The translations under genes and the position numbers were made by a program. The notes beneath the pieces were generated by a model. It saw only the letters and a list, made by a program, of their open reading frames with translations, searched no databases and was not told where the DNA came from. Positions 124 to 54,830 of a DNA stretch of 64,000 nucleotides are shown piece after piece (positions within the stretch are counted from its first letter, which is position 1; the number at the start of each line of letters is the position of its first letter). The stretch lies in assembly GCA_027475525.1 (NCBI GenBank), contig JAMWFC010000088.1, positions 74,757-138,756 of the forward strand, read 5' to 3'. This DNA is from Macrolepiota albuminosa. Taxonomy: Eukaryota; Basidiomycota; Agaricomycetes; Agaricales; Agaricaceae.

Positions 124-252
124 TTGATATTCGACACTTCTGAGACGTGTTGACTAGAACCGAGTCCGACTACCTAGACCTACCCTCATGCGTCGTGTCG
201 CGTACCTCACCTTCTCATCTTTCTCGCCCATCGGCGAATCCCCGTGTCTGTC

Positions 253-4893: not shown

Positions 4894-4944
4894 ACCACGA
4901 TTCCATGCGAGGAGGAGTGTGTTAAGCGTCGTGGTGAGGAGGAG

Positions 4945-5642: not shown

Positions 5643-5910
5643 TGTTGAGGACAACAGTTGACTACTTCCCCTTTTAGTTTATCGTATGTTTTCTCCCGTT
5701 TGTTACATGTCACACCTCAGTGTTCCTAACCACTGAGGGTGTAAGTCAATCTTTTATGTCGCACTTAATACGTTACTCATTACCCGTAGTTCCCTCTGTT
5801 AACTACAGGTAGAAATATACATTAGTGTTCCTAACCACTGAGGTTTCCCTCTGTTAACTACAGTTAACTACAGTCACCCGAGATCTCCCGAGACCGGTCC
5901 TGCCTCAACA
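5643..5910 (+). repeat. 5' LTR of Copia-2
   Basis: 268 bp, TGTTGAGG...CCTCAACA, followed by primer-binding site GGTTATGGGCCC (5911-5922). Hairpin 5712-5742: ACACCTCAGTG pairs with CACTGAGGGTGT with one bulged G, loop 8 nt. Its 3' arm runs into GTAAGT (5741), the donor of a 49-nt intron-like segment ending CCGTAG (5789). The acceptor module TTCCCTCTGTTAACTACAG occurs at 5790-5808 and 5845-5863, separated by GTAGAA...CACTGAGGT. Confidence 0.9.
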
Positions 5911-24765: not shown

Positions 24766-26534
24766 ACTGATGTGCTGAAGGTTTCAATCAAGCTGTGAAA
24801 GGCTTTTTATATTTCTACGGGCTGTGCTTACTGAAAATGTCCCACACAACATCAGAATGTCAACATTCCTCAATAAAACACAGCATTGTCCGTCAATTCA
24901 GGCCTGCGTTGTCTTCTAGTCCATAATGAAAATATATGACGGGAGCTCTTAGCAAGAGTATTGGAAATCCATTACATCCTTTGTGTAAGTAGAAGGTTAC
25001 CTGAGGCATCCTAACGTCAGCAGACACCCGCCCGTAAACACTACTGTTTTTATAAAAATAGGTGAGAAACAGCATCCAAAAAAGTCAAAGTAAAGCTTTT
25101 TCCGTCAATGTCGTGGTGGAAATTTTCTAGATGGAAATATACCATCAGAGTACACAGCGCAAGGGCAGGGGGTAATTGGACCAATCCGATCGGCAGTCTA
25201 ATCGGCCCATGAGTTGTATGCAACATTGAGCGAGGGGCTTCAGATGGAACCTTGGAACCCTCGAACTAGGGTAGACGAAAGTGAATTGCGAAAGACTTAT
25301 AAAAGGTTTCCCACTCGCGTAGAAATTTTGAGTAAAATCATCACTGTGTATTCTCGACGACGTCGTACTCAATGCTAACAACCCTGCAAAAGATAAAATG
25401 ATTCCACTAATTTAATCGTTCAACAACGTAGGTACTTACTCTAAGATCTCGAACCGTGGAGCCCCTGATAGGTTCCTTCATTAGTTGTATATCCTCGCGT
25501 ATCACCTTGGATGACCTAGCGGCTTGTAAAAGTCATAGGAACAAGCAGCTGCGAGATGGGTGAGCAAAAGTACAACATCAGGAAAGAATTCAAACGACTT
25601 ATAGCTGTTGTGTGGTTGAGTGGACGGTGACATATTGATGAGTACAAACGAGTACGCATACCTTGGCGGTAGGACTAGTCGTACATGTTGCAGAGAAGAG
25701 CAGCAACGTCTTGTCAAGATATGCCTGGTCGATGAAGAAGTGGGAAACGGAATACAATAGATAGGTCATAGGCTTCCTAGATCGTCTCGAGATCGCCTCG
25801 CAAGCATACGGTGTATGCCATGGATTCAGAGAGAATGACATTGGATTTATGTGGCGATCCGTTACGCGACACCGTAAGTGTTCGACAGACAATCACCTTT
25901 ACGACATATCATACTCATCACATCATAAACAAAGTGGACCTTCGCACATATAAGCGCCATTATATGGGCATCACAGTCAGTTGTAGTATCACAGGCTGAG
26001 GGCGAGCTATAGACGTACGGATTCTATACACCAACTAACCGTACTTGAGCATAAGATACTTGCTGGTATCTGCGATTATTTAGGTCCAGATTGTATGGAC
26101 GACGTGCATGAACAGAAATGCCAGAAGGTAAAGATCTCTTGCTAAGGATGACTCTGAGGGAACCTTCTTTCAATGTGTCAATCTCTAATCATATAACCAC
26201 GTAGTGCCATCAGGGAGCTGTAGGGAAGCATTTCAATGTGTGCAACAGAAGTGCTGCCGAAACTGTTGAGATCAGTAGTCGGATATGGCATGCACAGCAG
26301 TTTCAGCTGCGCGTGGAATTGGAAGATTGAACGCTGTGAAATATAAACCAAAAATGATATGTTCAGCAAATGTTCAGTGGAAGAAGACATCAACCGTGCT
26401 TCCTGATAAGATGGCGATCACATTTCCAGAGTTCGAGCCGGCAAGCCGCATATGACTCCTGCTTCTACCTCAATTGTTGTTCTACCACTGTCACTACATA
26501 GACACCCTCCTTCTCCACTGTGTCTGCATCTCCC
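24766..26534. other. Host-like DNA without a confident gene
   Basis: CpG-containing. Several minus-strand open frames (25145-25381, 25599-25892, 26178-26393) have plausible intron signals nearby, for example TTTCACAG near 26336, and could be exons of one or two genes, but I recognise no domain. The left TSD of Copia-A (CTCCC) is at 26530-26534. Confidence 0.35.
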
Positions 26535-26704
26535 TGTTGCAGTTGGCACAACGCAGTTGGGACAGACTAGGACCGAGAGTATCTTAGACCAGAGTACTAG
26601 TGTCCTCGTGCTTCAGAATGAAGAAGCCAAGGACACTAGGGAAGAAAATGAACTACATATCACGTGACCGTGTTTAGGGGGCACCTCCTCAATCGTCTTC
26701 AACA
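26535..26704 (-). repeat. 3' LTR of Copia-A
   Basis: 170 bp; on the minus strand TGTTGAAGACG...CAACTGCAACA. It contains a 10-bp inverted repeat, CTAGTGTCCT/AGGACACTAG, with a loop of about 23 nt. This hairpin does not share the stem sequence of the other Copia LTRs here. Confidence 0.95.
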
Positions 26705-26731
26705 CTCCCACCTGACGGGGTGCCCACGACG

Positions 26732-29700
26732 TCACTGGAGTTCAGTTCGAGAGAATTCTCCAACTATCCCCATTTTTCGTCTAAGTTTGTCGACCACGTC
26801 ACGCGGTAGCGTCTTGGTGAGGAGATCGGCGGCCATGTCTTCAGTCGGTATGTAGATAGGTCTAATTTTACCGTCATATACAGCTTGTCGAAGCCAGAAC
26901 CAGTGCCTGTCCAAGTGCTTGAGGCGGCCCATGTGTTCCGGTTGCTTTGAGACCAGGATGGCAAACTGATTATCGAGATTGAGCGTCAAGGCTGTGGATT
27001 GCGGTGTACCTATGTCTGCGAGAAAATTCTGTAGCCAACATAGCTCGCGGCCTGTCTCACTTGCCGCCACAAACTCGGCCTCTGTGGTGGAGAGCGCGAC
27101 TAAGGTCTGGAGCTTGGACATCCAGCTCACAGCCCCGCCAGCTACCATGAGGACGGAACCAGTCGTCGACTTGCCGTTGTCTACATTACCACCATGGTCG
27201 GCGTCAGCATACGCGGTATAGGGCGAGGGAGAAGAGGCTGCGGCGTCCGCCGAGTACTCGATCTTGTAATCAAGGGTGCCGCGCACATATCTCATGAGGT
27301 GCTTGACGGCTTGCCAATGTCTGGGGCCGGGACAAGCGTTGAAACGACACAGGACACCTACGGCATAAGCTATGTCAGGCCGAGTGCACATGGCAAGGTA
27401 GAGGAGCGCGCCAGTGGCCTGTATATATGGGACTGTGCGCATCTCTTCGACTTCTTCGGGTGTCTTAGGCGAGTCGGCCTTAGAGAGAGACGGACCGGAG
27501 GCGAGCAGTGTAGCTACAGCCTTGGAGTCGAGCATGTTGAACCGCGAGAGTATTTCAATTGCATAAGCCTTCTGATCTATCCAGAGCTTGCGTTTGGCGC
27601 GGTCGCGCGTCACGACAACGCCCAAAAGACCTGTGGTAGGACCCAGGTGACGCAGCTTGAAGTACTGACGGAGCTCATCTATGACCTTGAGGATTGCCGA
27701 TCGAGACTTAGAGGCCAGCATCATATCATCAACGTGTATTGGAACGATGATACGGATACCATCCCTCAGGTAGACGTAAACACAGGGGTCAGAAGTAATC
27801 CGCGTGAACCCTAGTTTGACAAGCACTTGATGGAGACGCCTATTCCACAGATGGGCGCCTTGTCGCAGGCCATAGATTCCCTTTTCTAGCTTAGCGCATG
27901 CCTCTCCGTCACCTGGTTTACGCTTGACGTCAGGAGGTACCTGCTCTGGAAACCCATCTGGAAACCTCATGTAGAGCTCAGTGTCGATCACGCCGTGCAG
28001 GAAAGCCAAGGAAATATCCACGGACTCGAGGTGCATGTCCTCCATTGCCGCGTGTGCAAGGACTGTCCAAACTGCTGCCCAACGAGCTGTTGGCGCAAAA
28101 GTCTCATTGAAATCCACTCCCGGCCGTTGACTAAAGCCCTGCGTGACTACTCGTGCCTTGAAACGTTCAATCGCACCGTCAGGGAGATGCTTAACCTTGA
28201 AAACCCAACAAGATCCGATTGCTTTCCGTCCAGCTGGTAAATAGACTGCACGCCAAGTCCCGTTACTCTTGAGTGAGTTCATCTCGTCGACCATTGCCTG
28301 ATGCCACTGAGCAGCGTTCTCTCCTGCCATTGCTTCACGATAGGACCGCGGGTTCTTATCATGCGCACCGACTTTGTATATGTGGGCTACATTCGCGCAT
28401 ACAGCACCAAAACCTGGGGAGTCGACGCCCTGCTCTACATAGGCACGCCCAGCGAGAAGCAGAGCCTCATCAGACTCTACGTTCAGGACGAGGTCCACTT
28501 CCTGCTTGCCGTGGTTGTCAACGCTCCCGACGTTGACTTCCCACAGCGGCTGCTCCACGGGCCATTCTGGGTATGGAGAGGGTGGAGGGGGCGGCGGTGG
28601 TTCGCGCAGGAGGGGGGATTCATGATCTTCCTGGCGCTGGAGGGCATCATAATAGTCGGCATTGGGTCCGCGTGCTGGAATTTGTGTTTGCCGGCTGGGT
28701 TCACGGGGTGGTGGCAGAGGCCTGGGTTGGCGAGGTGCACGTGCCCGAGGCTCTGGCCGTGTTTCTGGCTCGGGTTCTGCTCCCACCGAACCTCCTGGCT
28801 GTGCTTGACTCTCAGGCTCGGGTTCTGCTCCCACCGAACCTCCTGGCTGTGCTTGACTCTCAGGCTCGGGTTCCGCTCCCACCAAACCTCCCGGCTGTGC
28901 CTGACTCTCAAGCTTCACTCCCACCGTTGATCCTGAGTCCTCATCATCATTGGGTAGAGGGGTAAGCGGCTCGTCGATGTCGAAGGGATCTTCCTTGATC
29001 TTTTCCTTCATCGTGCTTTCTACGACAGCGGCATCGAGATCGGAGTCAGGATTGAGATCGGGCAAGTTATCGAACGCTTCGAGTGGGGGCGGCGGAGGTG
29101 CGTTTGTGGCCGAAAGACCAGGTAAGCATGTCTCGTCAAACACAACGTCTCTAGAGATTAGGATCTCACCGGTCTTAGGGATATAGACCTTCCAACCGAC
29201 GTGGTTGTCAGGATAACCGATGAATATTCCTGACACACAGTGTCCCTGTAATCCCTTCCTTTTGTCACGGCTCATGAGTACATATGCGGCGCAGCCAAAT
29301 ACACGGAGGTGTCCAATGCGCGGCTTACGACCCTTGTACGCCTCGAAAGGAGTGAGATTACGTGGGAGTGCAGATGTTGGGCATCTGTTGTGGACGTGCC
29401 TGTATGTACTAAGCGCGTACGTCCAGAAGCTTTGTGGGAGGTTGGCTTCCGATAGCATTGACGTAATTGCTTCTTCTAGAGTCCTATTGAGTCGCTCCGC
29501 AACGCCGTTCTGTTGGGGAGTGGCCGTGTTAGTGAACTCGACACGGATTCCTTCCGATTTACAGAAGTTCATGAACTCGTTAGAAGTATATTCCCCCCCT
29601 TTGTCGAAATGAGCACATTTGATCTTCTTTCCCGTGTGAAGTTCTGCTTGCACTTTGAAAGACTTGAACGCTGCAAATGCATCGCTTTTACGAGCCATGT

Positions 29701-31375
29701 CGTAGGCCTCCATCCACCTTGTGCTATCATCGGTGAACGTCACCCACCATCTGCGATTTGACCGGTGACCGCCTACTTGCATTGGTCCATGTACGTCACT
29801 GAATACTCTTCCCAGCACTTCTGTTGCTCTGTCGGCGTCACACGGGAACGCTGCACGGTGCTGTTTCCCTTTTAAGCACGGTTCGCAGACATGGGGAAGT
29901 GCTGGGGACGGGGACAACTTGAGATCACTCGTCAATTCTTCTCATATCAGTTGCTCGAGCCTATCGGCACCGAGGTGGCACATCCGCCTGTGCAGCAGCT
30001 GTCTGTCGACCTTTGCGGATGACGTCGGCCCGAGGAACGATGCGTTGGCAGAACTCGACGGTGACGAGATGAGTGTTTCCCCATCCAAATAGGAGGTCAA
30101 GGTGCTATCAATAGACGCCAAGAAGATCAGTTCGTCTTTTGCTGAAAAGAATACTCTTCGTCCACGAAAAGTAACCACAATGCCGTGATGCACAGAGAGG
30201 GCGGTAATGGAAAGTAAATTGTTGGCTAAATCGGGTACGAATAGAACATTGGAAAATATCACGTCGTTAAGTGGCTGTTTATTTCGATTCTCTCCCTTCG
30301 GCCTAAACCTCACTGAGCCCTTTCCGGCTGAATACACTGTTGCATCATTTGCGAGTCGTATTGGTACCTTCCAAGGTTTGAAGGTGTCAGGGATGAACCA
30401 TTCACGATTCGGCGTCATAGAGCTCGTGGCGCCCGAGTCTGTGTTCCACAGCAAGTTAGATGGACTGTTCGCTGACAGAGAGGATCTACAAACAGCCGCT
30501 TCAGCCTTTACAGCAGGGCCATCACAGCCTTCTTCGACCTTCGGAGCTTTTGTTGCCTTTGCTGCTGCATTTCCACCACGGCGGCCTCCTCGCTTCTTGG
30601 GTTTAGAGTCTCCATCATCCTTCTTGACGTGAGAACGTGCAGACTGAAAGACAGGGCAATCAGTGATCTTATGTTTACCATCACATAGGTAACATTTGAG
30701 AACTCGGGCGGCAGCTGCGGCTTCCTCTTCAGCCATGGATCGCTGTACTTCTTCTGTTCGGAATGCTTCCTCGACTGCGTCATTGGTCAAGTTATTCAAC
30801 ATCAGGACGGAGGAAATAAACGGCGCGTAATCTTCATGTGGCAGTGCACAAAGCATTGCCATCGAACAGAGCTCGTCATCGAGCATTTCGAGGGTATAGA
30901 CAGGCTTGAAAACTCTGTCCGGTCCGAGGATGTGCGGAGGTCTAAGCGAGCGGATGCGTTGCATAGCTCCTTTAACACGAGTACACAGCTGCGTTAAGGT
31001 TTCGTTCTCGCGCAGGCGCACATTGAAAAGATCACTTAAAGAGTTGAAACGCGCGTTAGGCGCGGACTTCGAGTGTATCTCCTTAAGCTTTGCCCACATC
31101 AGGGCAGGTTTGTCTCGAATTTCATCTACATGAATCTTGTTTCCCTCGTCAAGCCACTGGTAAATTTCTCCTGCCGCTCGATCACTTCTGAGCAAGTAAG
31201 AATTCCAAGCATTAATGGAAGTGGGGTTATCGGGTTCGAGGAGGGGCGGCAATTCTTCGCCAGTTACGATCCGTGCTCCGCCGACTGACATTAGACGCCC
31301 GAACATGGCTTTCTCCCATTCCGTGTACTTAATGACCCCAAGTTTTGCCATTGGCAACCGTGAGATATCATCCAT
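26732..31375 (-). CDS. Copia-A Gag-Pol polyprotein with one in-frame stop
   Basis: Starts at ATG 31375. The first 477 codons hold Gag, a short zinc knuckle CX2CX3HX4C (residues 228-240; canonical spacing is X4) and protease DSGAT (313). A UGA at 29944-29942 falls inside the GAG-pre-integrase domain, after CHLGADRLEQLI; the same frame then stays open for over 1000 codons: integrase (FSDVHGP, HFDKGGE, NGVAERLNR), RT with VDDMM, RNase H (ADADHGG, TTEAEF, LDN). A CGA-to-TGA change would explain the stop. Readthrough is conceivable, but the position in mid-domain argues for a disabling mutation. The linker carries three 16-residue repeats. Confidence 0.93.
28767..28910 (-). repeat. Three 48-bp tandem repeats in the Copia-A linker
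   Basis: Units begin GGCTCGGG at 28767, 28815 and 28863, and encode the 16-residue unit ESQAQPGGSVGAEPEP between integrase and RT. They are in frame and hydrophilic, so probably a disordered spacer. Confidence 0.9.
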
Positions 31376-31505
31376 GATCGATGGGAATGTGGAGATTGGC
31401 AGGTGTGTGATAGTCTGGGTGGTGAGAGAGAAAACTTAGATGACGCTGCTACGTTTATGAACGGAGCGGTGTGTGATTCTACTTCGGTGTAAGTCTGTAG
31501 GGCCG

Positions 31506-31517
31506 GGGCCCATAACC
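31506..31517 (-). other. Primer-binding site of Copia-A
   Basis: Minus strand GGTTATGGGCCC, exactly complementary to the anticodon arm of initiator tRNA-Met, immediately after the 5' LTR. Confidence 0.8.
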
Positions 31518-31687
31518 TGTTGCAGTTGGCACAACGCAGTTGGGACAGACTAGGACCGAGAGTATCTTAGACCAGAGTACTAGTGTCCTCGTGCTTCAGA
31601 ATGAAGAAGCCAAGGACACTAGGGAAGAAAATGAACTACATATCACGTGACCGTGTTTAGGGGGCACCTCCTAAATCGTCTTCAACA
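31518..31687 (-). repeat. 5' LTR of Copia-A
   Basis: 170 bp, one base different from the left LTR (CTCCTAAATC here versus CTCCTCAATC there), so the insertion is recent. Confidence 0.95.
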
Positions 31688-31922
31688 CTCCCCTGATTCC
31701 AATTGATTCCAATTCAGATAAATAACTCGTTCCCCTTGCCTCTCCCCGTCCACCACTCAATGACCCCAAAATAGGTTCTTTCAAACTCCTCTTCGGTCTC
31801 GTGCGAGAGGTCAACCAGTCTACCCTGCACCCCCGTTCCTGAATACGCATGACGGTACGATGAGTTTGTGCCCCGGCGGTGTTTACAGCGACGCGAGCAG
31901 TCATGGCACCTATGCCCAGCAT
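31671..31922 (-). CDS. Possible host reading frame cut by Copia-A
   Basis: A CpG-rich frame from ATG 31922 reads into the right LTR of Copia-A at codons for SELESIGIRG. Skipping the element and one TSD copy, the frame goes on for about 20 more codons on the other side. No family recognised; composition Arg/Ser/Gly-rich. May be chance. Confidence 0.3.
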   Translation of the reverse strand: MLGIGAMTARVAVNTAGAQTHRTVMRIQERGCRVDWLTSRTRPKRSLKEPILGSLSGGRGEARGTSYLSELESIGIRGVLKTI

Positions 31923-39249: not shown

Positions 39250-39466
39250 TGTTGAATATCAAGGTCTAGCATCCAAGGCCTTGAAAGAAGCTATTTTATT
39301 CTATACATGGTCCGGGCAATCCAAGGACTTCTACGCCCAAGTTATCCCTTGATGCAACTTAAGACCTATAGCATGGGTAAGTACCTCAGTCTCATATACT
39401 TGACTGATATATCAATCCTACCTATAGCACAGCATACTATGGTAGGAGAGTGTAAGTAAATGTTGT

Positions 39467-39829
39467 TGTAGAGTAAAGCAAACAATATAAGTTCCTCAGA
39501 GCTTTACGGAGTGGGTAAAGACTGCTGTATTAACCTGTAGAGTAAAGCAAACAATATAAGTTCTACAGGTACTGTAAGTAAGCAGCCAGAAGTGTAACAA
39601 TAGAGATAGGCTCACCCTCAGAGCTTTACGGAGTGGGTAAAGACTGCTGAGGGTGTTCGGCCGACGTTCCGAGCCAGGAAAAATAAGATGGACAAAGACT
39701 TGTAAATACGGCGGGGCGCTGATGGCGCTGCCCGCAGTAGGGTCCCTATGAAGTAATCAAGAAGAAAAAAATAAATGAAGTAAAATAACATATCGTACTC
39801 CTGGTAGGTGCTGGACATCTCTGTCAACA
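39467..39829 (-). repeat. 3' LTR of Copia-B
   Basis: 363 bp; plus strand starts TGTAGAGTAAAGC. Hairpin 39613-39655 (stem CACCCTCAG/CTGAGGGTG with an inner stem CTTTAC/GTAAAG). The minus-strand intron-like segment is 39615-39563 (GTGAGC...CTGTAG, 53 nt). The loop and exon recur at 39494-39527, joined directly to the sequence that follows the acceptor. Confidence 0.95.
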
Positions 39830-39855
39830 CTCCCCCAGATGTCGAGACCTCCCTT

Positions 39856-42800
39856 CTACCTGGTGAGACCCAACTTTTGGAGGAGGTACTCGTGCACGAC
39901 GCGTGTCAGAGGTTTGGTAAATAAGTCGGCTATGTTCTCAGCGGACGGGATAGGTACGATTTGGATATCACCGCATTGGACTCGTTCGCGTATATAGTGA
40001 TGGCGTATATCGATATGCTTCGCTCTGGAATGCCCCTTTGTGGATTCTGCGAGCGCAATAGATGATTCGTTGTCTGCATTAAGGATGGCGGGCAGTGTTT
40101 GTGGGAGGTTGATCTCAACTAAGGAGTTATGCATCCATAACCCTTGTTGCGCTCCACGAGTAAGGGCCATATATTCAGCTTCCATTGTCGATAAGGCTAC
40201 TGTTGCTTGTCGTTTGGAGCTCCATGAGACCGGTCCTCCACTTATCATAAAGACGTAGCCTCCAGTTGACCGTCGAGTGTCGAAGTCTCCCGCAAAATCT
40301 GAGTCCACATAACCCACAGGTTTGATTGATCCTCCATCGACCTTCGAGTAAGTGATTTTAAGGTCGATAGTCCCTTTAACGTATCCTAAAACGTGTAGGA
40401 GAGCCTTCCAATGAGCAGGGCCAGGATTAGCTTGGAAGCGTGCTAGTAGGCCCACGGCATAAGAGAGATCGGGTCTGGTTGCTACCTGTGCCCACATGAG
40501 TGCACCCAGTAACTTCCTGTACGGTTTGTCGAGCATGTACTTCCTTTCGGTGTCAGATCTGGGTGCCATGTCTTCTGTGAGTCGTATACTAGCAGGGAGC
40601 GGTGTTGCATGAGGGTTGCATTCAGCCATCCCAAAGCGTTCAACTGTGCGCTTGAGGTAGGCTCGCTGGGACAATGAGATGGAACCAGTTACCGAATTTC
40701 GTTCAACGGACATGCCCAGTATGAAGGTAGGATCTCCAAGGTCTTTAATTTCATATGCAGATGCTAGCTCCCTTTTGGCGTCCTCTGCAGCTTTGGGTGA
40801 TGATGATACACCAAACACGTCATCAGTGAAGGTATTCGTGATTGTGTGCTCGCCGTCTACGATTCGGGATCTGACGCAACTGTCCGCTCGTGAGGTTGTA
40901 TAGCCCAGGCTTCTGTATGTATTGTCTAGAGTGTGCCACCAGTCGCGTCCACCCTGCATCAAGCCATACAAGGTCTTCAGGAGGAGACACACCTTTCCTT
41001 CCCCTCCCCTGAGGCCTTGGGGGACTTGCATGTATATAGTGTGCGACGGTACGCTGTTCAGGTAAGCAGACACAAAGTCGACCTGCCAAATGTTCAGTCC
41101 TAGTTGGACAGCAATCGCAATGGACATCCTAAGGGACTCGAGCCGAACAACCGCCGCGTAAGTTTCCTCAAAGTCCTCCCCCGCAACCTGTGAAAAACCC
41201 TTTGCCACCAGCCGTGCTTTCCGCTTGACTATGTTTCCCTCTGACTCGTATTTATTTGCATACACCCACCGGCATCCGATAATCTTCTTCCCCTCTGGTA
41301 CAGATGAGGTAGGTACAAGCTTAAAAACTTCGCGGTCACGCAACATACTCAGCTCCTGCTCCATAGCCGGACCCCAGAGATCAGGTCGTTGCATGGCTTC
41401 AGCGTATGTGTTTGGCACATAGTCGTAGTCCTCGGCGCTTTCTGACATAGAAGCTAGAAAGGCAAAAGCATCTTGAACTAGATAGGAGGCTGCAGGTACG
41501 TCTGTGGCATTTTTGGCTGCAAGGCGTTCTGATCGGCGGACAGTGGGCTGCTGTGGCGTAGGTATGGAGGTGTCTTGAAGTGGCTCAGGGGTGTCAGGTA
41601 TGCCAGGTACGTTGGCGGGATCAGCAGACGCCTCTGTTGAGTCATGGAGGGGACCATCAGTTTCACGTATGCGTGGGGCCACAGGTTGGCGAGTTTGGAG
41701 TATGCCGGGGGCGTTTGGATCAACTGTAGGGATCACGTCTGTAGTGAGCTCCTCAGCACTCTCAAAAACAGTAAGTGAGCGGTGCCCTATGCCCTCGTCA
41801 AAAATCACGTCACGAGATGTGATGATGGACTGTGTGCCTTTATCATACAGCCTGTACCCATTATCCGTGTAACCCACCAGTACGTACTTCACAGATCGAG
41901 GGTCGAGCTTTGACTTGACTAGTTCTTCTGGGATTTTGGCAAACGCAACACAGCCAAAGGGTCGTAGGTGCCCTACCTTCTGACGTCTTTTTGTCCAACC
42001 CTCTTCTGGAACTAGGTCAGGGTGGCGAGCTGATGGGATGAGATTGCGGGTCTGGATCTGGGTAGCAGCTGCTTCTGCCCATAGGTTTTTAGGAAGTTCG
42101 CTGTTGGCTAGCATACACCTGACACCTTCAATGACAGTTCGGATGCTTCGCTCGGCCAAGCCATTTTGGGCATGTGCGTATGGAGTGGTGATATTCATGT
42201 AAATTCCATGCGCTGTGCAGTAGGTGATCCAGCTATCATTTATCCATTCCTTTGCTGCGTCAATCCTGACCATTTGCAACTTGTTTCCAGTTTGTCGCTC
42301 TGACTCGACGTGATACGTAGTGAAAGCCTCAAGCGTGGTCTTGGCATCCTTTCGTGACAAGAAATACCCTTTAAACCTGGAGGTGGCTCCATCGACAGCA
42401 AGCATCATGTATGATGCTCCACCCAATGACGTAACTGATGCAGGACCCCACAGATCGATGTGAACACATTGGTTTGGCTTAGTCTCGACTTCAACTTTAG
42501 TATCGTACGGTCGGGCTGTGTGTTTGCCATACACACAGTCCTCGCATACACCCTCTGCCTCAATGTTGCCTTTGACTATCAGTCCATCGACTAGGTTCTT
42601 CTTTGCCATATTCTGGATGCTTTTGATTCCTGCATGACAAAACCGGCGGTGCCACACATCAATTCCTGCAGGGACATTCAACGAGGAAGCGATCATAATT
42701 GTGGTGTTTGGAGTTTTGACATCGTCGAGCAATCCTAGCGAGTACATTCCCTGAGTAGCACGTCCTACAAGCACCTCTCGACCATTCGCATCTCGAAAGA

Positions 42801-44127
42801 TTGCCTTCCCTTTTGAGAAAGTCACAGTGAAACCAGCTTCGTCGAACTTTCCGATTGATATCAGGTTTGCTGCAAGGTCAGGCGTGTGCAGTGCTTTTCT
42901 AAAGACCAGCTCCGATGACCCATTTTCTGTTTTCACAGTTTTCTTGACTGTCCCCTGTCCAACAATACGGAAAACTCCCCCAACTGGTGCTGACTGACCA
43001 TTTCGTGGAGTGGCCAGCTCTTTGTATTCACAGAAAGCTTCCCTGCTGACGAAGCAATGGTCTGTAGCACCCGAGTCTGCGTATGTGGGTATCCTTCCAA
43101 CAGATTGCAGTGCAAAGGTGTCAGCTAGTTTGGGGAACTGTGCTGCAAGGGCATACGTGACATGTGGTGCTGTGGCGTTCACTAGATGTGCAGCGGGAAC
43201 TGTTGCAGCACTCGTGCCTGATGTGGCAGTGGCGTTCTTTGTAGCATTCAGGGTTGTGACGGCACTCTCTCGGTTTCTGAAATTCTGCGGAAACTGTCCT
43301 TCCTTCCCTCCACCTAGCCAATAGCAATCTCCGATTAGGTGTCCAGACCGTTTACAGTTGGGGTTCGTACACACGAGCTTTGGCTTTGCTGTCTTTGTAT
43401 TTGCTTGGAGTGCCGTCGTTGTTGTCCCTGCGCTTTGTTTTTGCATCCGGAGTCGTTCCCAATGGATACTGAGTCCAGCTATCAGGGCTGCTGAGGTGGT
43501 TGTCGAGTAAAGGCTTGCCACGATAGTGTTCCAGGACTCAGGCAGGGAGCTCATTATTATAGAGCGGAACGTTTTGTCTGGAATAGTTGCTCCTTTTTCG
43601 ACCGCCTCTCTCCACTTGGTGCGGAGGTTTTGGATATGGGTGGGGAAGTCGTCGCCGTCAGTGAACATTGTGGTGCGTAAGCGGTTCTCTGCTCCGATTG
43701 CTGCGAGTTCAGACATCGTTCCATAGGCGTCGGTTAGTGTCTTCCATGCTTCCGTGGCGGTCCCATTCATTTTGATACCCAGGCCAATTGGGTTTTTCCA
43801 GTTACTTATGATGAGGTTCAGCGTCCAAGCGTCACGCACATCCCATTCGTCCAGGGATGGGTTTGGCGAGGACCACTTTGTCTCAGCAAGGGTAGTTGTA
43901 GGTGTGGTAGGTGTAGGTGTGGTTTTAGTGTCGTCGTCAGTGTCGGCTTTTATGTTAGCCTTTTCTTCTGCAGGAGAGACAATTGTCCCATCAAGGTATC
44001 CATGAGCGCCGCGTATGCGCGCTGCAATTAACACCCTGTCTCTGAAGATTGCAAAATTTGTCCCATCGAATTGTGAATCCTCCGGGAACGTGGGTGGAGA
44101 CGTAGTCGACATAGTGTTTGTTGCCAT
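39856..44127 (-). CDS. Copia-B Gag-Pol polyprotein
   Basis: 1423 codons from ATG 44127 (the frame is open further upstream but only through the primer-binding site and LTR). Order: Gag, zinc knuckle CX4CX4HX4C (CTNPNCKRSGHLIGDC), protease ADSGATDHC, GAG-pre-integrase WHRRFCHAG, integrase (HIDLWGP, RIDAAKEW, NGLAERSIR), RT with FTDDVFG where most Copia RTs have YVDD, and RNase H (DSDFAGD, STMEAEYMA, ADNESSI). No stops. TDD keeps the two catalytic Asp but changes the first position, which may affect fidelity; activity is inferred from integrity only. Confidence 0.95.
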   Translation of the reverse strand: MATNTMSTTSPPTFPEDSQFDGTNFAIFRDRVLIAARIRGAHGYLDGTIVSPAEEKANIKADTDDDTKTTPTPTTPTTTLAETKWSSPNPSLDEWDVRDAWTLNLIISNWKNPIGLGIKMNGTATEAWKTLTDAYGTMSELAAIGAENRLRTTMFTDGDDFPTHIQNLRTKWREAVEKGATIPDKTFRSIIMSSLPESWNTIVASLYSTTTSAALIAGLSIHWERLRMQKQSAGTTTTALQANTKTAKPKLVCTNPNCKRSGHLIGDCYWLGGGKEGQFPQNFRNRESAVTTLNATKNATATSGTSAATVPAAHLVNATAPHVTYALAAQFPKLADTFALQSVGRIPTYADSGATDHCFVSREAFCEYKELATPRNGQSAPVGGVFRIVGQGTVKKTVKTENGSSELVFRKALHTPDLAANLISIGKFDEAGFTVTFSKGKAIFRDANGREVLVGRATQGMYSLGLLDDVKTPNTTIMIASSLNVPAGIDVWHRRFCHAGIKSIQNMAKKNLVDGLIVKGNIEAEGVCEDCVYGKHTARPYDTKVEVETKPNQCVHIDLWGPASVTSLGGASYMMLAVDGATSRFKGYFLSRKDAKTTLEAFTTYHVESERQTGNKLQMVRIDAAKEWINDSWITYCTAHGIYMNITTPYAHAQNGLAERSIRTVIEGVRCMLANSELPKNLWAEAAATQIQTRNLIPSARHPDLVPEEGWTKRRQKVGHLRPFGCVAFAKIPEELVKSKLDPRSVKYVLVGYTDNGYRLYDKGTQSIITSRDVIFDEGIGHRSLTVFESAEELTTDVIPTVDPNAPGILQTRQPVAPRIRETDGPLHDSTEASADPANVPGIPDTPEPLQDTSIPTPQQPTVRRSERLAAKNATDVPAASYLVQDAFAFLASMSESAEDYDYVPNTYAEAMQRPDLWGPAMEQELSMLRDREVFKLVPTSSVPEGKKIIGCRWVYANKYESEGNIVKRKARLVAKGFSQVAGEDFEETYAAVVRLESLRMSIAIAVQLGLNIWQVDFVSAYLNSVPSHTIYMQVPQGLRGGEGKVCLLLKTLYGLMQGGRDWWHTLDNTYRSLGYTTSRADSCVRSRIVDGEHTITNTFTDDVFGVSSSPKAAEDAKRELASAYEIKDLGDPTFILGMSVERNSVTGSISLSQRAYLKRTVERFGMAECNPHATPLPASIRLTEDMAPRSDTERKYMLDKPYRKLLGALMWAQVATRPDLSYAVGLLARFQANPGPAHWKALLHVLGYVKGTIDLKITYSKVDGGSIKPVGYVDSDFAGDFDTRRSTGGYVFMISGGPVSWSSKRQATVALSTMEAEYMALTRGAQQGLWMHNSLVEINLPQTLPAILNADNESSIALAESTKGHSRAKHIDIRHHYIRERVQCGDIQIVPIPSAENIADLFTKPLTRVVHEYLLQKLGLTR

Positions 44128-44180
44128 TTTAAGTTTAGCTATTCCGGTAGTTGCGCAGCGAGAAAAAAAAACGCTAGCGG

Positions 44181-44193
44181 GGGCCCGATAACC
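44181..44193 (-). other. Variant primer-binding site of Copia-B
   Basis: Minus strand GGTTATCGGGCCC, which is the tRNA-iMet anticodon-arm match of the other elements with one extra C opposite the anticodon. It could be a mutation tolerated by the primer or a match to another tRNA half. Confidence 0.6.
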
Positions 44194-44556
44194 TGTAGAG
44201 TAAAGCAAACAATATAAGTTCCTCAGAGCTTTATGGAGTGGGTAAAGACTGCTGTATTAACCTGTAGAGTAAAGCAAACAATATAAGTTCTACAGGTACT
44301 GTAAGTAAGCAGCCAGAAGTGTAACAATAGAGATAGGCTCACCCTCAGAGCTTTACGGAGTGGGTAAAGACTGCTGAGGGTGTTCGGCCGACGTTCCGAG
44401 CCAGGAAAAATAAGATGGACAAAGACTTGTAAATATGGCGGGGCGCTGATGGCGCTGCCCGCAGTAGGGTCCCTATGAAGTAATCAAGAAGAAAAAAATA
44501 AATGAAGTAAAATAACATATCGTACTCCTGGTAGGTGCTGGACATCTCTGTCAACA
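44194..44556 (-). repeat. 5' LTR of Copia-B
   Basis: 363 bp, same structure as the left LTR including hairpin (44340-44382) and second loop copy; two CpG-to-TpG differences from it. Confidence 0.95.
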
Positions 44557-44640
44557 GTTGTCTATGTAGGTATATATTTTACTCACCCTCAGTCTCATAT
44601 ACTTGACTGAGGGTGACCCATGGTAGCTGTCTGTATATAT

Positions 44641-46571: not shown

Positions 46572-46911
46572 TGTTGATAAAACACATCATGGCCACCTCA
46601 TTTGTCTCCTGTATTTGACCCTCCTTTCTCTCTCCCTTTGTTCCATTGTTTAATCAACTACTGACCATACCACAGCCCTAACAACTAAACCACCATTGTT
46701 ACAAAATCTATATATATGTACACAGACCACCAAACACACTTAGTCAATTATACGTTGAACTGAGGTGAGTAGCTATTTATACATACAAGTAAACATACTA
46801 ATGTAGTTATCTACAGACTTACTTTGTCTTCTAGCTACTTTTTAGTCAATCATACGTTAAACTGAGGACTTACTTTGTCTTCTAGGTTAATACAGATATT
46901 GAGTTCTAACA
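46572..46911 (+). repeat. Solo Copia LTR with TSD
   Basis: 340 bp, TGTTGATAAAAC...GTTCTAACA, perfect 5-bp TSD CATCT (46567-46571, 46912-46916). TATA-like CTATATATATG (46708). A degenerate hairpin arm ends ACTGAGG. Intron-like 46765-46816 (GTGAGT, ATACTAAT, CTACAG; 52 nt). The acceptor module ACTTACTTTGTCTTCTAG occurs twice (46817-46834, 46868-46885), separated by a second loop copy ending ACTGAGG. Confidence 0.85.
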
Positions 46912-47999: not shown

Positions 48000-50900
48000 C
48001 TACATTTCCCCTTGACCATTCCCTGCCAGCCATCTATCGAGGGCCTCGTTTTTCTCGAGTTCTTTGCCAGCCTTCCATTCGTCGTGTTCCGGGCCATATC
48101 CTCGAAAACGTACCAAATATTGCCGACCCTTCCCGCGTCGCCTAGAGTCCACGATTTTGTCCACAAAATGTTCTTTGAGGCCCATATCCGGGGTGAATAC
48201 AGGGCCTGGTTCTTCAAATGTTCGTGTCGGGAACAGTAAGGAGTCATTGTCATTGTAAAACAACAATTTAGATGTGTGATACTGCCCATATGCCTCCGGG
48301 TCATTCGGTCGGAAGACGGTGACATTAGATGACTCGGGATGTACTCCCGTCACCACGAAGGGGCCATCATATCTTGGCATCAACTTGGCCACCAGCTTTT
48401 GACCTTTCTTCTTGTACATACGTCTTCTATCCTTCGTGCAAATCAGCATGCGATCTCCAATCTGGAACTCGCAATCATCCGCCCGTGACTTATTCGCCTG
48501 TGCAGCTTGCTGCATTTTGGCTTGCAGCAAATTGTCCTGCGCTGTAAGTGTATCCATTGCCAGGCATTCGACCACATTCCGCGCCGTCTCTTCGTCTGAT
48601 GGCACTGGTCCTTCCCGTGGCACAAGCAGCGGAATCATCTGTGGGCTCCGACCCATTCTCAGCTGAAATGGCGAGTAGCCCGTCGATTTGTTAACCGTAT
48701 TCATAATGTCAAAGCGCACACGAGGCAGTGCCCTGGCCCACCCTTTCTGGTTCTGGTCGACGTGGAATCGTAATGCCTGCACGATTGTTTTATTTGAACG
48801 TTCGCTCACTCCATCTGTTTCCGGATGATATGCAGTAGACATTTTTACTTTTACCCCAATCAGTTTCGTTAAATTTTTCCAGAACTTTGAAATAAACAGT
48901 TTATCTCGGTCACACACAATATCTTGAGGCAATCCGTTCTCACAGTACCAGTTGTCGAAAAACAATTCTGCCAGTTGAGGTGCTGTGAAGTCGATGCGAG
49001 TCGGTATGATACGGATATCTGAGTGCAACCGATCCGTGATCGTCAATATACAATTGAAGCCATCGTCTTCGGGCAAGGGCCCCACGAAATCCATCGCAAT
49101 GGATTCACCCCGGCCATCTGGCACTGGAAGGGGATGCAACGGTCCCATCGGACGTGTAGACGGTGATTTATACCTTTGGCATTCCATGCACAATGGAATA
49201 TAACCCAGTTCCAGGTCACGTCGCATACCAGGCCAGTAATACGATTGCCGCAACACGCTATATGCCTTTTCAAAACCAAAATGGCCGAGAGAATTGTGGG
49301 CGAGTCTGAAGATTCTCTCCCTGATGTCCCCCACTCGTGGGACGAGTAACCGTGATCCCAAGAACCACAATCCCTCCTTCTCCACCAATGAGGTCATTCC
49401 TCGTGCAGCGCTTTGCAATTTCTGACACCAAGGATCTGTTTTATATCCTTGCCGCAGGTCGTCAATTAAGTCGTGGTCAATTGTTATTGACGTCATGTGC
49501 ACTGCCGCACATGCAGCTTCCTTGTGTACTGTGTGTGCCAATGACACCACAGACGCAAACGGTGAGTCGTTGCCGACCGGTAAGACCGCCGCTATGCATT
49601 CTGAAATGAGGTCATCGTCATGCATGGTTTCTAACAGTGTATGCGCTGAGCGTACAGACTGCTCGGAATCAGGAAATTCGTATGGCAGTCGGGATAACGC
49701 GTCAGCCACCGTGTTGTCCTCCCCCTTGACATAAACCATTTTGCAATCAAACTGAGCTAAAAACTCCATCCACCTGGCTTGTCTTCGCAACAGATCCTTT
49801 TGTCCCTCAAAATTCAGCAAGGTTTTGTGGTCGGTGAATACCACAAAGTGAGTACCGAAAAGATCCGCTCTCCACTTCTTCAATGCACGAACGATCACTA
49901 ACAACTCCTTTTCGTGCACTGGGTAATTTAACTCCACGCCCTTGAACGTCTGGCTTTTGAAGGCGACCGGACGTGCCGTCTCCCACGTTTTGCCAAAAGA
50001 CAGTACTCCGCCTGACCGGAAGTTGCTTGCATCTGTTGTGACAAAAATTGTCTTAGTAGTGTCCTTGTGGTTGATAGTCGTAAGACAATCCCGTCCAATC
50101 ACTAAAGCTTTTACATTGTCAAATGCTTTCTGATGTTTCCGTGTCCACGTTGGAAATTCGCTTTCGCATTCCTGTGTCGTTAATGTGTGTAACACCCGCG
50201 TGTGTTCTGCCAAATTAGGCAAAAACACGGCAATGTACCTCACCAGTCCAAGGAATGACCGGACTTCCTTTGCAGAACGAGGTGTAGGCCACGACAAAAT
50301 TCGGTCTACCTTTTTATTGTCTGCTTCTATGCCAGCCGCTGAAATGTGGTGCCCCAGAAAATCAATACTGGTACGATACAGCAAGGACTTTTTTACATTC
50401 ACAAACATGTGTGCATCACGCAGGGCTTGAAGCACACGACGAACATTCTCATGGTGTTCTTCCAGCGTGTCTGACCAAATAACGATGTCGTCCAAATAGA
50501 CATGACAAATTTTCCCTATGTATTGACACAATGCTGCTGTTACCCTCCGCTGCTGGATCGCGGGAGCATTCCGCAATCCCATCAGCATAACGAGCCACTT
50601 GTACAGCCCAAAAGGTGTCGACACTGCAGTCAAGTAGACATGGTCCGGATGCATCGGTGTCTGAAAAAAGGCATTTGTTAAATCAATTGCTGTGAAGAAC
50701 TTCCCCTTCGCACAATCGTGCAAAATGTCTTCCACACATGGTATCGGGTGACTATCTGGTACTGTGACCGCATTCAACGCCCGGTAATCGTTCACCCACC
50801 TCGGCAGAGCCGTGGGATCAGCCTTGGGGATAAGAAATGCTGGAGATGCAAATTGGGACGAAGACGGTTGGATACGGCCCGCATTCAAGTGCTCGTCAAT

Positions 50901-52814
50901 CAGTGTTTTCCACGCTTCACGATACTTCCGTGGACATTGGTACGATCGCATTTTTATCATATTATTCGCCTCTTTCAACCGAATTTCTGCCATGACGTCT
51001 CGCGGTAGTTCACGTATATTCGCTATCGGTTCAAATACATCTTTAAATTCTTCTTTCATGCGACCGTCAAATTTGAGGAGCATTTCCTCCGTTACCAGTT
51101 GTTCTATTTGTGCTACTATTGCTGCGACGATATTTGGTTCCATAACCTTCTCAAACAATCCAAGACGTTCCATACGATCACGTCTAATTTCGCAGACCAC
51201 TTTCAGTTCCTTCATAAGAGTCTCTCGTTGTTTCAACGTTCTTTTGAACTTTTCTCTCATCGGTATAAAGCGCTTTACAGTTGTGGCATTCAGTGGTGTG
51301 GGATTCATCAAATCGTACATGTTACGCTTATCTATCACAGTTCCACTATCATGATCTATTACAATTTTGTTGTGCTTCAAAAACGGCAATCCCAATATCA
51401 CGGGCGCACACAAATTCGGCGCAATAACAGCGCGTACAGTATTCGAAATCCAGCTACGATCCGTAGACGTTACACTAAGTTTACAATATTCTGGCAAGAC
51501 AGTCGCCGTATCTTTTCTCTCATTCGACATCACCACATTCACAGACAAGGGTTCTTTCAAGCGCAATCTACGAAGTCCAAGACGATTCACTAAGCCTGAA
51601 TCAATCAAAACAACGTGTGAGCCATCGTCCAACAACATCGGTACAGTAATCGGAAAGTCGGTATTTGGGCCCGCAATCGAGCCCGACCATACTAAGTGGG
51701 GGACGGTCAAAGGAACGGCACTCACTTCCATTTCTGAGTCAGAGTCAGAATCCATTGTTTCCACCGTAGCATGGACAGTCGATGACCGGGGCAGGACGGC
51801 GGCAACAGTAGCAGTAGATGTTTGTGTCACAACAGGGGTCACGGCAGCTGCGGGACGAGAAGCTCTCGCCCCAGATGCCTTGAGAGCATCAATACGTGCC
51901 TGTGTCCACGCCTGATATTTTGACGCATCGGGAAAAGGTTCGACACAATTACTGGTGCGGCATGACACAAACGGGCGACGGCAACGGAAACATCCACTAT
52001 TCTCTCGTAACAGACGCTTCTCTTCCTCTGTCAGAGAGGGCAACCTTGCGCCCTTTGATATCGTTGAAACCGACGAAGTAGTCGGGTTAGGCTTACTAGA
52101 CGTCGTCACCGGCTTCTTTGCCTGTCGAAAAACTTCATCTGCGATTTCCCTAGCATGCTTTTCGGACTGATGGCGTGTTTCGTCAATGAGACGAATACTA
52201 TTAAGCCACGCGTGAAAGTCGGTGGCCTCATCTAGATTACGTTCGAAGTAAATGACAGAGAGTGCTGAGTCGAGTTTCGCTTCAATCTGTGTGCGGAGTT
52301 TGTCGAGTTCGAAATGAGACGAGGTACCAAGCAAAAGGGAGTTTTGTTTCTGCAAGTAAGACGCAAAATCCCAGAAGGATTGTTTCTTGTGGTTAAAATT
52401 CGCGGACAGAATTCGAATACGGACTTTCGGCTCCCAATCAGGCGGCAAATACTTCGAGCGAATTTCCTGCATGAAGTCGTCAAAAGACAGTTTAACAATA
52501 ACGTCGCGTTGGCCAGAGATCCAATCACGCATTCGATGATCCTTTATCCCCACCAGCAAACGCCTGACCTGATCTCCCTCCTCAATTTCTTTAGTGTCAA
52601 AAAAGTCTCTACAAGCAGTTTGAGCCGGTACGGGAGATGAGGAAGAACTATCCGAAGAAGGAACCCGTTTCCGCAAAACACACGGAGCCGGAGTTACAGG
52701 AACCAAAGGGACAGATGTGACGTTCGAGCCTGGGGAATTTTCTGCTGTAGTCGGTAAAACGGTTAAGGGTGACGAAAGCTCAGTATGCCTTCGCGCGTGA
52801 CTGCGAGTGGTCAA
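48000..52814 (-). CDS. Gypsy Gag-Pol polyprotein with chromodomain
   Basis: 1604 open codons; the nominal first codon is TTG. The frame is open about 18 codons farther upstream, yet contains no ATG before residue 95 (52532), so initiation is unclear: spliced leader exon, non-AUG or internal start. Gag; modified zinc finger CFRCRRPFVSCRTSNC; protease LLDDGSHVVLID (DDG instead of DSG/DTG); RT with YLDD at 773; RNase H TTDAS, HEKEL, FTDHK; integrase zinc finger HNSLGHFG...CMEC and catalytic MDFVG, CDRDKLF, DGVSERSNK; chromodomain VRFRGYGPEHDEW near the C-terminus. Chromodomains of this kind steer integration to modified histones. No stop. Confidence 0.94.
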   Translation of the reverse strand: MTTRSHARRHTELSSPLTVLPTTAENSPGSNVTSVPLVPVTPAPCVLRKRVPSSDSSSSSPVPAQTACRDFFDTKEIEEGDQVRRLLVGIKDHRMRDWISGQRDVIVKLSFDDFMQEIRSKYLPPDWEPKVRIRILSANFNHKKQSFWDFASYLQKQNSLLLGTSSHFELDKLRTQIEAKLDSALSVIYFERNLDEATDFHAWLNSIRLIDETRHQSEKHAREIADEVFRQAKKPVTTSSKPNPTTSSVSTISKGARLPSLTEEEKRLLRENSGCFRCRRPFVSCRTSNCVEPFPDASKYQAWTQARIDALKASGARASRPAAAVTPVVTQTSTATVAAVLPRSSTVHATVETMDSDSDSEMEVSAVPLTVPHLVWSGSIAGPNTDFPITVPMLLDDGSHVVLIDSGLVNRLGLRRLRLKEPLSVNVVMSNERKDTATVLPEYCKLSVTSTDRSWISNTVRAVIAPNLCAPVILGLPFLKHNKIVIDHDSGTVIDKRNMYDLMNPTPLNATTVKRFIPMREKFKRTLKQRETLMKELKVVCEIRRDRMERLGLFEKVMEPNIVAAIVAQIEQLVTEEMLLKFDGRMKEEFKDVFEPIANIRELPRDVMAEIRLKEANNMIKMRSYQCPRKYREAWKTLIDEHLNAGRIQPSSSQFASPAFLIPKADPTALPRWVNDYRALNAVTVPDSHPIPCVEDILHDCAKGKFFTAIDLTNAFFQTPMHPDHVYLTAVSTPFGLYKWLVMLMGLRNAPAIQQRRVTAALCQYIGKICHVYLDDIVIWSDTLEEHHENVRRVLQALRDAHMFVNVKKSLLYRTSIDFLGHHISAAGIEADNKKVDRILSWPTPRSAKEVRSFLGLVRYIAVFLPNLAEHTRVLHTLTTQECESEFPTWTRKHQKAFDNVKALVIGRDCLTTINHKDTTKTIFVTTDASNFRSGGVLSFGKTWETARPVAFKSQTFKGVELNYPVHEKELLVIVRALKKWRADLFGTHFVVFTDHKTLLNFEGQKDLLRRQARWMEFLAQFDCKMVYVKGEDNTVADALSRLPYEFPDSEQSVRSAHTLLETMHDDDLISECIAAVLPVGNDSPFASVVSLAHTVHKEAACAAVHMTSITIDHDLIDDLRQGYKTDPWCQKLQSAARGMTSLVEKEGLWFLGSRLLVPRVGDIRERIFRLAHNSLGHFGFEKAYSVLRQSYYWPGMRRDLELGYIPLCMECQRYKSPSTRPMGPLHPLPVPDGRGESIAMDFVGPLPEDDGFNCILTITDRLHSDIRIIPTRIDFTAPQLAELFFDNWYCENGLPQDIVCDRDKLFISKFWKNLTKLIGVKVKMSTAYHPETDGVSERSNKTIVQALRFHVDQNQKGWARALPRVRFDIMNTVNKSTGYSPFQLRMGRSPQMIPLLVPREGPVPSDEETARNVVECLAMDTLTAQDNLLQAKMQQAAQANKSRADDCEFQIGDRMLICTKDRRRMYKKKGQKLVAKLMPRYDGPFVVTGVHPESSNVTVFRPNDPEAYGQYHTSKLLFYNDNDSLLFPTRTFEEPGPVFTPDMGLKEHFVDKIVDSRRRGKGRQYLVRFRGYGPEHDEWKAGKELEKNEALDRWLAGNGQGEM

Positions 52815-53830: not shown

Positions 53831-53950
53831 CATGTTGTTAAATGCCATGTTTATTATTGTAATTTATTACATCTAGTATCTAGAAAGAGGAGCATGCATG
53901 AAAATTGTACAATTATGTGAATTTTTTTTTGCTTTAGCAGTTATTATTCT

Positions 53951-54524
53951 TGTCAGGGGACTCCTCATTTCTTCCTTTTCTCACTCCCTATCTCTTCACT
54001 CTCCTTCCATTCATTCTCTTATTTCTTCTGACATTATTTCATTTCACTGTTTCTATTCTTTCAACACTATCTGTTAGTACTACTCTCAGCCCTTGAGATG
54101 CTCTGGTTCTTTAGCCACCATTCAGACAAGTGTGGGCCCACTCAGCACCGCTTCCAGACCGCTTATATAAGCCAGAGTTTGCCAGAGTTTGCCTCTTATT
54201 TGTACAAGTGTTTGTGTAGGCAATTTTTGAGTTTTTATTACATAAGCCAGAGTTTGCCAAAGTTTGCCTCTTATTTGTACAAGTGTTTGTGTAGGCAATT
54301 TTTGAGTTTTTAAGGTTTTGTTGTACTGTACAGTTGTTTTCCATGCTTCAGAGGCCCCAGAAGCGTCCAACCTGGCATAGGGAATCCCTAGACTTGTTCT
54401 CTTTGGATCTCCCTCTGCCAGGTGAGTAGCTACCTTGATATTGTCAGTATATATTCTAATACACTTTGGATCTCTCTCTGCCAGCTGTGTGACTGAGCCA
54501 CAGCCTCTAGAGGTCGCCCTTACA
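53951..54524 (+). repeat. Solo LTR-X, copy 4 (574 bp)
   Basis: TGTCAGGGGACTCC...CCCTTACA with perfect TSD ATTCT (53946-53950, 54525-54529). The intron-like 63-nt segment is at 54422-54484. It has its own 75-bp tandem duplication (units from 54167 and 54242). Confidence 0.9.
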
Positions 54525-54649: not shown

Positions 54650-54830
54650 TGCTTATATAAGCTGATAGTCCATCAATAGTTTATGTAAGCTGTTGCTCCA
54701 GCAATGGTTTATGTAAGCTGATACTCCATCAATAGTTTATATAAGCTGTTGCTCCAGCAATAGTTTATAAAAGCTGATATTCCATCAATAGTTTATATAA
54801 GCTATTGCTTCTGTAATGGTTTATTGTTTG
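54650..54830. repeat. Minisatellite with two alternating 28-bp units
   Basis: GTTTAT(A/G)TAAGCTG alternates with endings (A)TACTCCATCAATA and (T)TGCTCCAGCAATG for about six units, a 56-bp higher-order period. Flanks 54530-54650 and 54830-55252 are AT-rich with no gene. Confidence 0.75.

Follow-up and report, generated by a model that had tools for sequence, protein, structure and literature searches.

Reverse transcription normally erases introns, a property on which both the detection of retrogenes and intron-marked transposition assays are based. How an LTR retrotransposon could use introns and nevertheless retain them is the question raised by Copia-B, an element on the minus strand of the window (the whole stretch of DNA that was analysed, 64,000 nucleotides). 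Each of its LTRs carries a leader with a putative intron and, next to it, a second copy of the same leader in spliced form. The element is composed as follows.

39467-44556, minus strand: Copia-B element, with the target duplication GTTGT at 39462-39466 and 44557-44561
39467-39829, minus strand: 3′ LTR
39649-39656, minus strand: left arm of the donor hairpin in the 3′ LTR (ACACCCTC), upstream of the putative cap site at 39648
39616-39648, minus strand: A1 (leader exon 1) of the 3′ LTR, from the putative cap site (AG) to the donor, CTGAGG followed by GTGAGC
39563-39615, minus strand: intron 1 of the 3′ LTR, 53 nt, GTGAGC...CTGTAG
39535-39562, minus strand: B1 (leader exon 2) of the 3′ LTR, ending in CAG followed by GT
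39527-39534, minus strand: spacer GTTAATAC of the 3′ LTR, donor side of the putative intron 2
39494-39526, minus strand: A2, second copy of exon 1 in the 3′ LTR
39467-39493, minus strand: B2, second copy of exon 2 in the 3′ LTR, reaching the LTR end
44194-44556, minus strand: 5′ LTR, laid out as the 3′ LTR
44343-44375, 44290-44342 and 44263-44289, minus strand: A1, intron 1 and B1 of the 5′ LTR
44221-44253 and 44194-44220, minus strand: A2 (1 mismatch) and B2 of the 5′ LTR

The original prediction that the second copy of Copia-B is the product of removing 39563-39615 holds exactly: A (39616-39648) is joined directly to B (39536-39562), and the joined 19-mer CTCTGAGGAACTTATATTG at 39483-39501 is the exact splice product. 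Both ends of intron 1 lie within inverted repeats, and the two LTRs are 99% alike (300 nt compared). The acceptor AG of the 5′ LTR borrows its G from the primer site, whose first base it is; at the 3′ LTR the flank provides no G to complete this AG. The spacer GTTAATAC together with the following A reads AATACA, which resembles a poly(A) signal. The primer site of Copia-B deviates slightly from the pattern used in the genome-wide search; the donor hairpin itself was tested on LTRs other than those of Copia-B, and the cap site at 39648 is placed by reference to other LTRs. Copia-B interrupts another such LTR within its intron 1 (flanks 39381-39430 and 44570-44620, by eye), and we agree, also by eye, with the earlier view that this split LTR fits the scheme loosely.

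Related structures are present elsewhere in the window.

1-111, plus strand: 3′ end of the Copia-1 5′ LTR, with B1 to 20, spacer 21-34, A2 35-56 and B2 57-81
82-111, plus strand: tail of the Copia-1 5′ LTR, followed by the primer site from 112
L009 9918-9939 and 9940-9995, in the flank: A1 and intron 1 of the Copia-1 5′ LTR
5107-5239, plus strand: leader part of the Copia-1 3′ LTR, with A1 5107-5128, the intron, B1 5185-5209, then the tail
5719-5863, plus strand: Copia-2 5′ LTR, with A1 5719-5740, intron 1 to 5789, B1 5790-5808, spacer 5809-5823, A2 5824-5844 and B2 5845-5863
46742-46885, plus strand: solo LTR, with A1 46742-46765 (donor without one G), B1 46817-46834, A2 46844-46867 and B2 46868-46885
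26533-31692, minus strand: copia element, both LTRs in the intronless type II form described below (single E, no intron)

As had been predicted, the second copy of Copia-2 (5824-5863) is a single base off the spliced product, at the donor edge, the solo LTR fits with one G lost at the donor, and the Copia-1 pair combines one LTR with and one without a second copy, the latter being the 3′ LTR. The second copy of the Copia-1 5′ LTR (35-81) likewise equals the spliced product apart from one mismatch, but this mismatch is found on the acceptor side (TATCG/TATTG) instead of at the donor edge, where it had been placed.

By their Pfam matches, the frames of Copia-1 and Copia-B are copia-type. The domains Retrotran_gag_2, Pol_BBD, gag_pre-integrs, SH3_retrovirus and RVT_2 follow one another in this order at 244-4890 and 39859-44208. 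A match to the integrase core (rve) was obtained in 39859-44208 only of the two, under its curated cut-off, and the gag match in 244-4890 is also under its cut-off. The order gag, integrase and reverse transcriptase with RVT_2, paired LTRs, a short target duplication and a primer site adjoining the 5′ LTR are those of a copia LTR retrotransposon (Pseudoviridae-like), and RVT_1, the mark of a retroviral-type pol as in Spumaretrovirus, gave no match in the copia frames, which match RVT_2. Ty1/copia elements, e.g. Drosophila copia, have half-tRNA-iMet primer sites, and the elements described here share with them the copia pol domains and a primer site, GGTTATGGGC, adjoining the LTR, which we take to be such a half-tRNA site. 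Among the 64 protein relatives of Copia-B the top ones are metagenome proteins, and the closest named ones come from Agaricus and Tricholomella, which points to an Agaricomycete as the probable host. Between two type I elements of the window, identity of the pol proteins is 30%. The window also contains a retrotransposon frame with RVT_1, integrase and a terminal chromodomain (48003-52814), presumably Gypsy-like, a 28-nt repeat array with two seemingly alternating variants (54653-54824), and a long inverted repeat pair (53950-54485 and 61942-62402, 97-98% complementary), to which direct copies at 6579, 13181 and 44938 are related.

The arrangement found in Copia-B is common in the genome (100 Mb, a single genome). 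The primer-site sequence that adjoins the LTR end, ACAGGTTATGGGC, has 516 matches versus one for the reversed control, and the hairpin ACCCTCAG-loop-CTGAGGGTGAG occurs 428 times versus none in the control. LTR ends were read at 100 of the 516 primer sites, the first in contig order and hence a non-random sample, and 76 of them have a second-copy layout. In type I (58 LTR ends, including L119, L127 and the three-copy LTR L135) the order is A1, GT-intron 1-AG, B1, GT-spacer-A2-B2-AG and tail, with A2-B2 being the splice product of A1 and B1. The one-exon type II (18 LTR ends: 16 with GT and AG, L073 with GC, L104 with a tandem duplication) is unrelated in sequence to type I and has the order E, GT-intron-E′-AG and tail. 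Two LTRs are cut short but contain copy 2 (L103, L133), two are without copy 2 (L026, L132), four are without an intron (L131 of type I; L024, L123 and L140 of type II), and 11 were not recognised, seven of these being judged from best-repeat lines alone. In another five (L025, L029, L030, L038, L099) the hairpin and GT are present and the second copy is absent, and thus the second copy is not universal; perhaps these five represent an older state, or their genomic RNA was left unspliced. The smaller groups were sorted by eye. The 54 type I LTRs compared below belong to 35 families, a fairer count than that of LTRs because some LTRs are near-identical duplicates. In the original prediction the putative second intron (from GT after B1 to AG after B2), the one-exon version and the position of the left hairpin arm outside the putative 5′ transcript had been missed. 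A pattern scan of IMG/VR gave eight stretches, with no such structure in the 120 bases before the match, by eye.

Some LTRs deviate from these layouts. L135 reads A1-intron-B1-spacer-A2B2-spacer-A3B3-tail; it had been taken to hold four leader copies, and its full sequence shows three. L104 was rejected as a three-copy LTR, its extra copy being a 77-nt tandem duplication. L133 carries, where intron 1 would be expected ahead of B1-spacer-A2-B2, the sequence TTCTAACA, which resembles the end of an LTR. Tandem duplications of 77 nt also occur in unrelated sequence, at 6873, 34776, 47214 and 47441 of the window, as well as at L014, L072, L079, L097, L102, L104, L111, L123 and other loci. This period accounts for 29 of 40 near-perfect tandem duplications (period 20-299) in 316,628 bases, some of the loci overlapping, and its being a single one suggests an assembly artefact (a 77 k-mer overlap kept twice), not biology.

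An unconstrained two-part split search of the 100 LTR ends was swamped in several cases by the 77-nt tandem duplications and by one-exon copies, and was replaced by a constrained search with a threshold score of 17 and a separate one-exon search. Seventy-one of the 100 primer sites reached a split-copy score of at least 17, whereas the maximum in 50 shuffles was 14, indicating that the second copy is not due to chance. The raw joint coincided with GT..AG in 56 of these 71. Shifting the joint by -12 to +12 bases left GT..AG in no more than 2 of 71, except at +1 (43) and +2 (11), where the shifted set still overlaps tied joints. Twelve of the 15 misses are type II LTRs, for which a two-part search is wrong as their copies comprise one exon; the others are a chance match (L030), a changed donor base (L119) and a 4-nt indel (L127). 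The 56 include L104, a type II LTR with a 77-nt duplication. After this sorting, which was done once the alignments had been seen, 55 of 57 two-copy type I LTRs have their joint on GT..AG, bearing out the proposal that the second copy represents the first after splicing, joined at the GT-AG borders. Donors of the form GTRNGT are found in 50 of the 56 (L104 again among them), acceptors are TAG in 45 and CAG in 11, and intron 1 measures 48-66 nt (54 LTRs). With these GT-AG ends and this donor, intron 1 has the appearance of a spliceosomal intron. The joint also follows the donor where the latter shifts: families in which CTGAGG precedes GTGAGT, CTGAG precedes GTATGT or CTGAGGCT precedes GTAAGT carry CTGAGG, CTGAG and CTGAGGCT, respectively, in copy 2.

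Within an LTR the two copies change together. Mean identity (54 LTRs) is 97% between A1 and A2 and 98% between B1 and B2, compared with 62% for A, 55% for B and 59% for intron 1 between LTRs (1431 pairs); the within-LTR values are partly built in because the LTRs were picked by a similarity score. At A sites where a pair of LTRs disagrees, each LTR has its own base in both copies in 410 cases, copy 2 is shared in 23 and 13 are of another kind; the corresponding numbers for B are 100, 5 and 3 (pairs with equal block length and an identity of 60% to <100%). In the near relatives L023, L101 and L107 the varying loop bases match in both copies, base by base. The remaining differences between copies are transitions in 63 of 66 cases, which would fit decay after insertion.

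The start of the copied block points to the cap site. In copy 1 of the type I LTRs the block begins exactly with the AG of CTCAG in 31 of 55, one to three nt before it in 19 and elsewhere in five, so that 50 of the 55 starts fall at or just before this AG. Of the 55 LTRs, 29 have a TATA-like motif beginning 30-34 nt upstream and 26 do not, compared with such a motif in 2.1% of 1100 shuffles, and of all TATA-like motifs 15-70 nt upstream, 54 of 68 fall at 30-34 nt. Type II LTRs have such a motif at 28-32 nt in 6 of 17, with 11 of 17 lacking it. From this we take the cap site to be the starting point of copy 2, as it would be for a cDNA run to the end of the RNA.

A hairpin embraces the first donor. 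Its left arm is located upstream of the putative cap site and its right arm extends into the donor, so the hairpin would be unable to form in the 5′ leader. Stem positions 5-8 covary, pairing in 92 of 120 cells, whereas 2000 reshufflings gave 58 on average and 76 at most (30 families; 5 of 35 were skipped for a missing anchor). The computed energy required to open the donor in type I LTRs (54) had a median of 14.8 kcal/mol with the upstream arm, 5.7 without it and 6.5 with a shuffled arm, and in type II LTRs (17) the values were 11.1, 5.1 and 5.2 kcal/mol. A gain in opening energy of >3 kcal/mol due to the arm was computed for 50 of the 54 type I LTRs and for 14 of the 17 of type II. Pairing probability was abandoned in favour of opening energy as it is a poor measure of masking, already 0.69 with a shuffled upstream arm. 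A donor pairing probability >0.7 was obtained for 42 of 54 type I LTRs with the arm versus 16 of 54 truncated ones (52% of 355 with a shuffled arm), and in type II this measure hardly separates the two states (9 of 17 versus 8 of 17 truncated). Folding thus predicts, given the putative cap site, that upstream sequence hides the donor of the 3′ LTR only, as in masking of the foamy virus type.

The segment from the spacer to the end of B2 may constitute a second intron. An AG is present in the B block of 53 of 55 type I LTRs, and in copy 1 the last AG is followed by GT in 53 of 53, which provides spacer-A2-B2 with intron ends. An earlier count of 54 of 54 for GT after B1 came from a rule that favoured AG followed by GT; the figures just given do not use this rule. 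GT directly follows B2 in just 30 of 54. This putative intron 2 is 50-74 nt long, and its length is apparently held constant, as the spacer is shorter where A and B are longer (rho -0.66, p 1.7e-5, one LTR per family, 35 families). Its donor is weak: GTA occurs in 53 of 54, but only 12 of 54 have G at position 5. Branch-like motifs are fewer as well, with 17 of 54 B2 blocks containing one as opposed to 26 of 54 when stretches of the same length are taken from the end of intron 1. Ten of the 54 LTRs, Copia-B among them, have no tail, and the primer site contributes the G of their AG as its first base; the acceptor of a tailless 3′ LTR is therefore complete only if the flank supplies a G. The motif AATANA is present in 35 of 54 spacers versus 41 of 715 control pieces, with 19 of 54 spacers lacking it, and 23 such motifs end at the first base of A2. 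It is a speculation that the RNA, if cleaved after AATANA, would end within A2-B2 and hence within the proposed landing site.

We consider it probable that the leader introns follow the cap site and are restored in each cycle by strong-stop transfer onto the spliced-leader copy, and we regard this as the best explanation of the LTR sequences. These copia LTRs would have one or two spliceosomal introns right after the cap site, the 3′ end of the last intron being the spliced-leader copy itself. Transcription would start at the A of CCTCAG, and removal of the introns of the 5′ LTR would leave A1-B1-tail as the type I leader and E-tail as that of type II, with the primer site coming next. Strong-stop cDNA made on this spliced RNA would then be transferred to A2-B2-tail or E′-tail of the unspliced 3′ LTR; the two would match because the LTR DNA holds this sequence uninterrupted. 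Copy 2 and the tail would serve as landing site, that is, as functional R. After transfer, reverse transcriptase would copy the spacer, B1, intron 1, A1 and U3, so that in each cycle the introns return and copy 2 is rewritten from copy 1. The flow of leader information would be unidirectional, from copy 1 to copy 2. With its donor shut in the hairpin, the 3′ LTR would keep its introns unspliced; the hairpin may in addition switch on the nearby poly(A) signal. The layout, the joint at GT-AG, the copy start downstream of a TATA-like box, the parallel change of the copies and the covarying stem are seen in the sequences themselves; the cap site, the splicing, the poly(A) site and the strand transfer of this scheme we infer from the DNA. 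Erroneous transfers should leave traces. Transfer to A1 instead of A2 would cause loss of the introns, and the form expected from it is seen in L131, L024, L123, L140 and both LTRs of the element at 26533-31692. A leader from which only intron 1 had been removed, landing on A2, would give three copies, the form found in L135. Recombination between direct repeats could be an alternative source of intronless, single-copy and three-copy LTRs.

The original prediction held that spliced cDNA had been re-incorporated into U5 repeatedly and independently. A cDNA of spliced RNA is indeed the likely source of the second copy, whose sequence is the splice product; a sporadic capture by recombination, now and then and independently in each family, with copies that are merely young, appears unlikely. 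The layout is found in 76 of 100 LTR ends, 35 type I families with diverged introns keep it, the copy in most of them starting and ending by one rule, and the unrelated type II has it as well. Since pol identity is down to 30% between two of the type I elements in the window, the layout is either old and kept up or constantly renewed. That it is wide-spread, that the copy starts near the putative cap site in 50 of 55 LTRs and that AG is followed by GT in 53 of 53 suggests a normal step of every cycle rather than accidents.

A single ancient origin, after which the copies were kept alike by gene conversion at the DNA level or by selection for identity, e.g. for pairing in strand transfer, would account for the likeness of the copies within LTRs, and an identical landing site would be of use; we think this unlikely, if slightly less so than sporadic capture. 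Gene conversion would need to even out two short blocks which are contiguous in copy 2 but 48-66 nt apart in copy 1, sparing the intron and the spacer, and the loop bases that vary among L023, L101 and L107 match in both copies. Selection for identity may have played a part. The inverted repeats at both ends of the Copia-B intron might instead point to template skipping over hairpins during DNA or cDNA synthesis, with GT-AG being incidental. This we find highly improbable, as the joint follows the donor when it is shifted 6, 5, 4 or 3 bases past the first stem pair and has GT..AG in all but two of the 57 type I LTRs.

Restoration by strong-stop transfer, the reading that we prefer, has partial counterparts elsewhere. 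Penelope-like elements are also retroelements that keep introns, but they do not belong to the copia-type LTR elements and are copied in another way. We know of no leader introns or second copy in Ty1/copia elements such as Drosophila copia, nor, to our knowledge, does HTLV-1 have a spliced-image copy. Judged by title and start of abstract, none of the matches listed in a literature search, which covered mostly journals other than subscription ones, described a spliced-leader copy in an LTR. The closest parallel is provided by foamy virus. As far as the available part of that account goes, the major splice donor of the foamy virus LTR lies in R, upstream of the poly(A) signal, and RNA of the 3′ LTR that includes bases -13 to -1 folds unlike RNA starting at +1, which is held to block U1 there (PMC3694450). 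A donor ahead of the LTR poly(A) signal that is hidden at the 3′ LTR by sequence preceding the cap site would thus be common to both systems, and in the folding predictions the hiding of the 3′ LTR donor looks like an independent case of the foamy virus trick. No spliced-leader copy in the LTR is described in the same part of the account (PMC3694450), whereas the copia LTRs have one. They also differ from foamy virus in that their leader introns end before the primer site is reached, and therefore spliced RNA could still be reverse transcribed. The R region of HTLV-1 with its Rex responsive element is likewise a long structured R that bears on polyadenylation at the 3′ end, according to the portion available (PMC3694450).

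Taken a step further, and with slightly more reserve, we believe it likely that these elements follow a new strategy, in which replication proceeds via spliced genomic RNA and the introns are restored in each cycle, the leader copy in the last intron serves as R, and a hairpin split by the cap site tells the 5′ from the 3′ LTR. Such a design could let introns upstream of the primer site survive the copying of RNA into DNA in the 76 of 100 LTR ends read that have it. Copy 2 would be a record of splicing at the level of sequence, a cDNA image of the leader of the parent element. The layout offers an answer to the question of how an element can both use introns and retain them.
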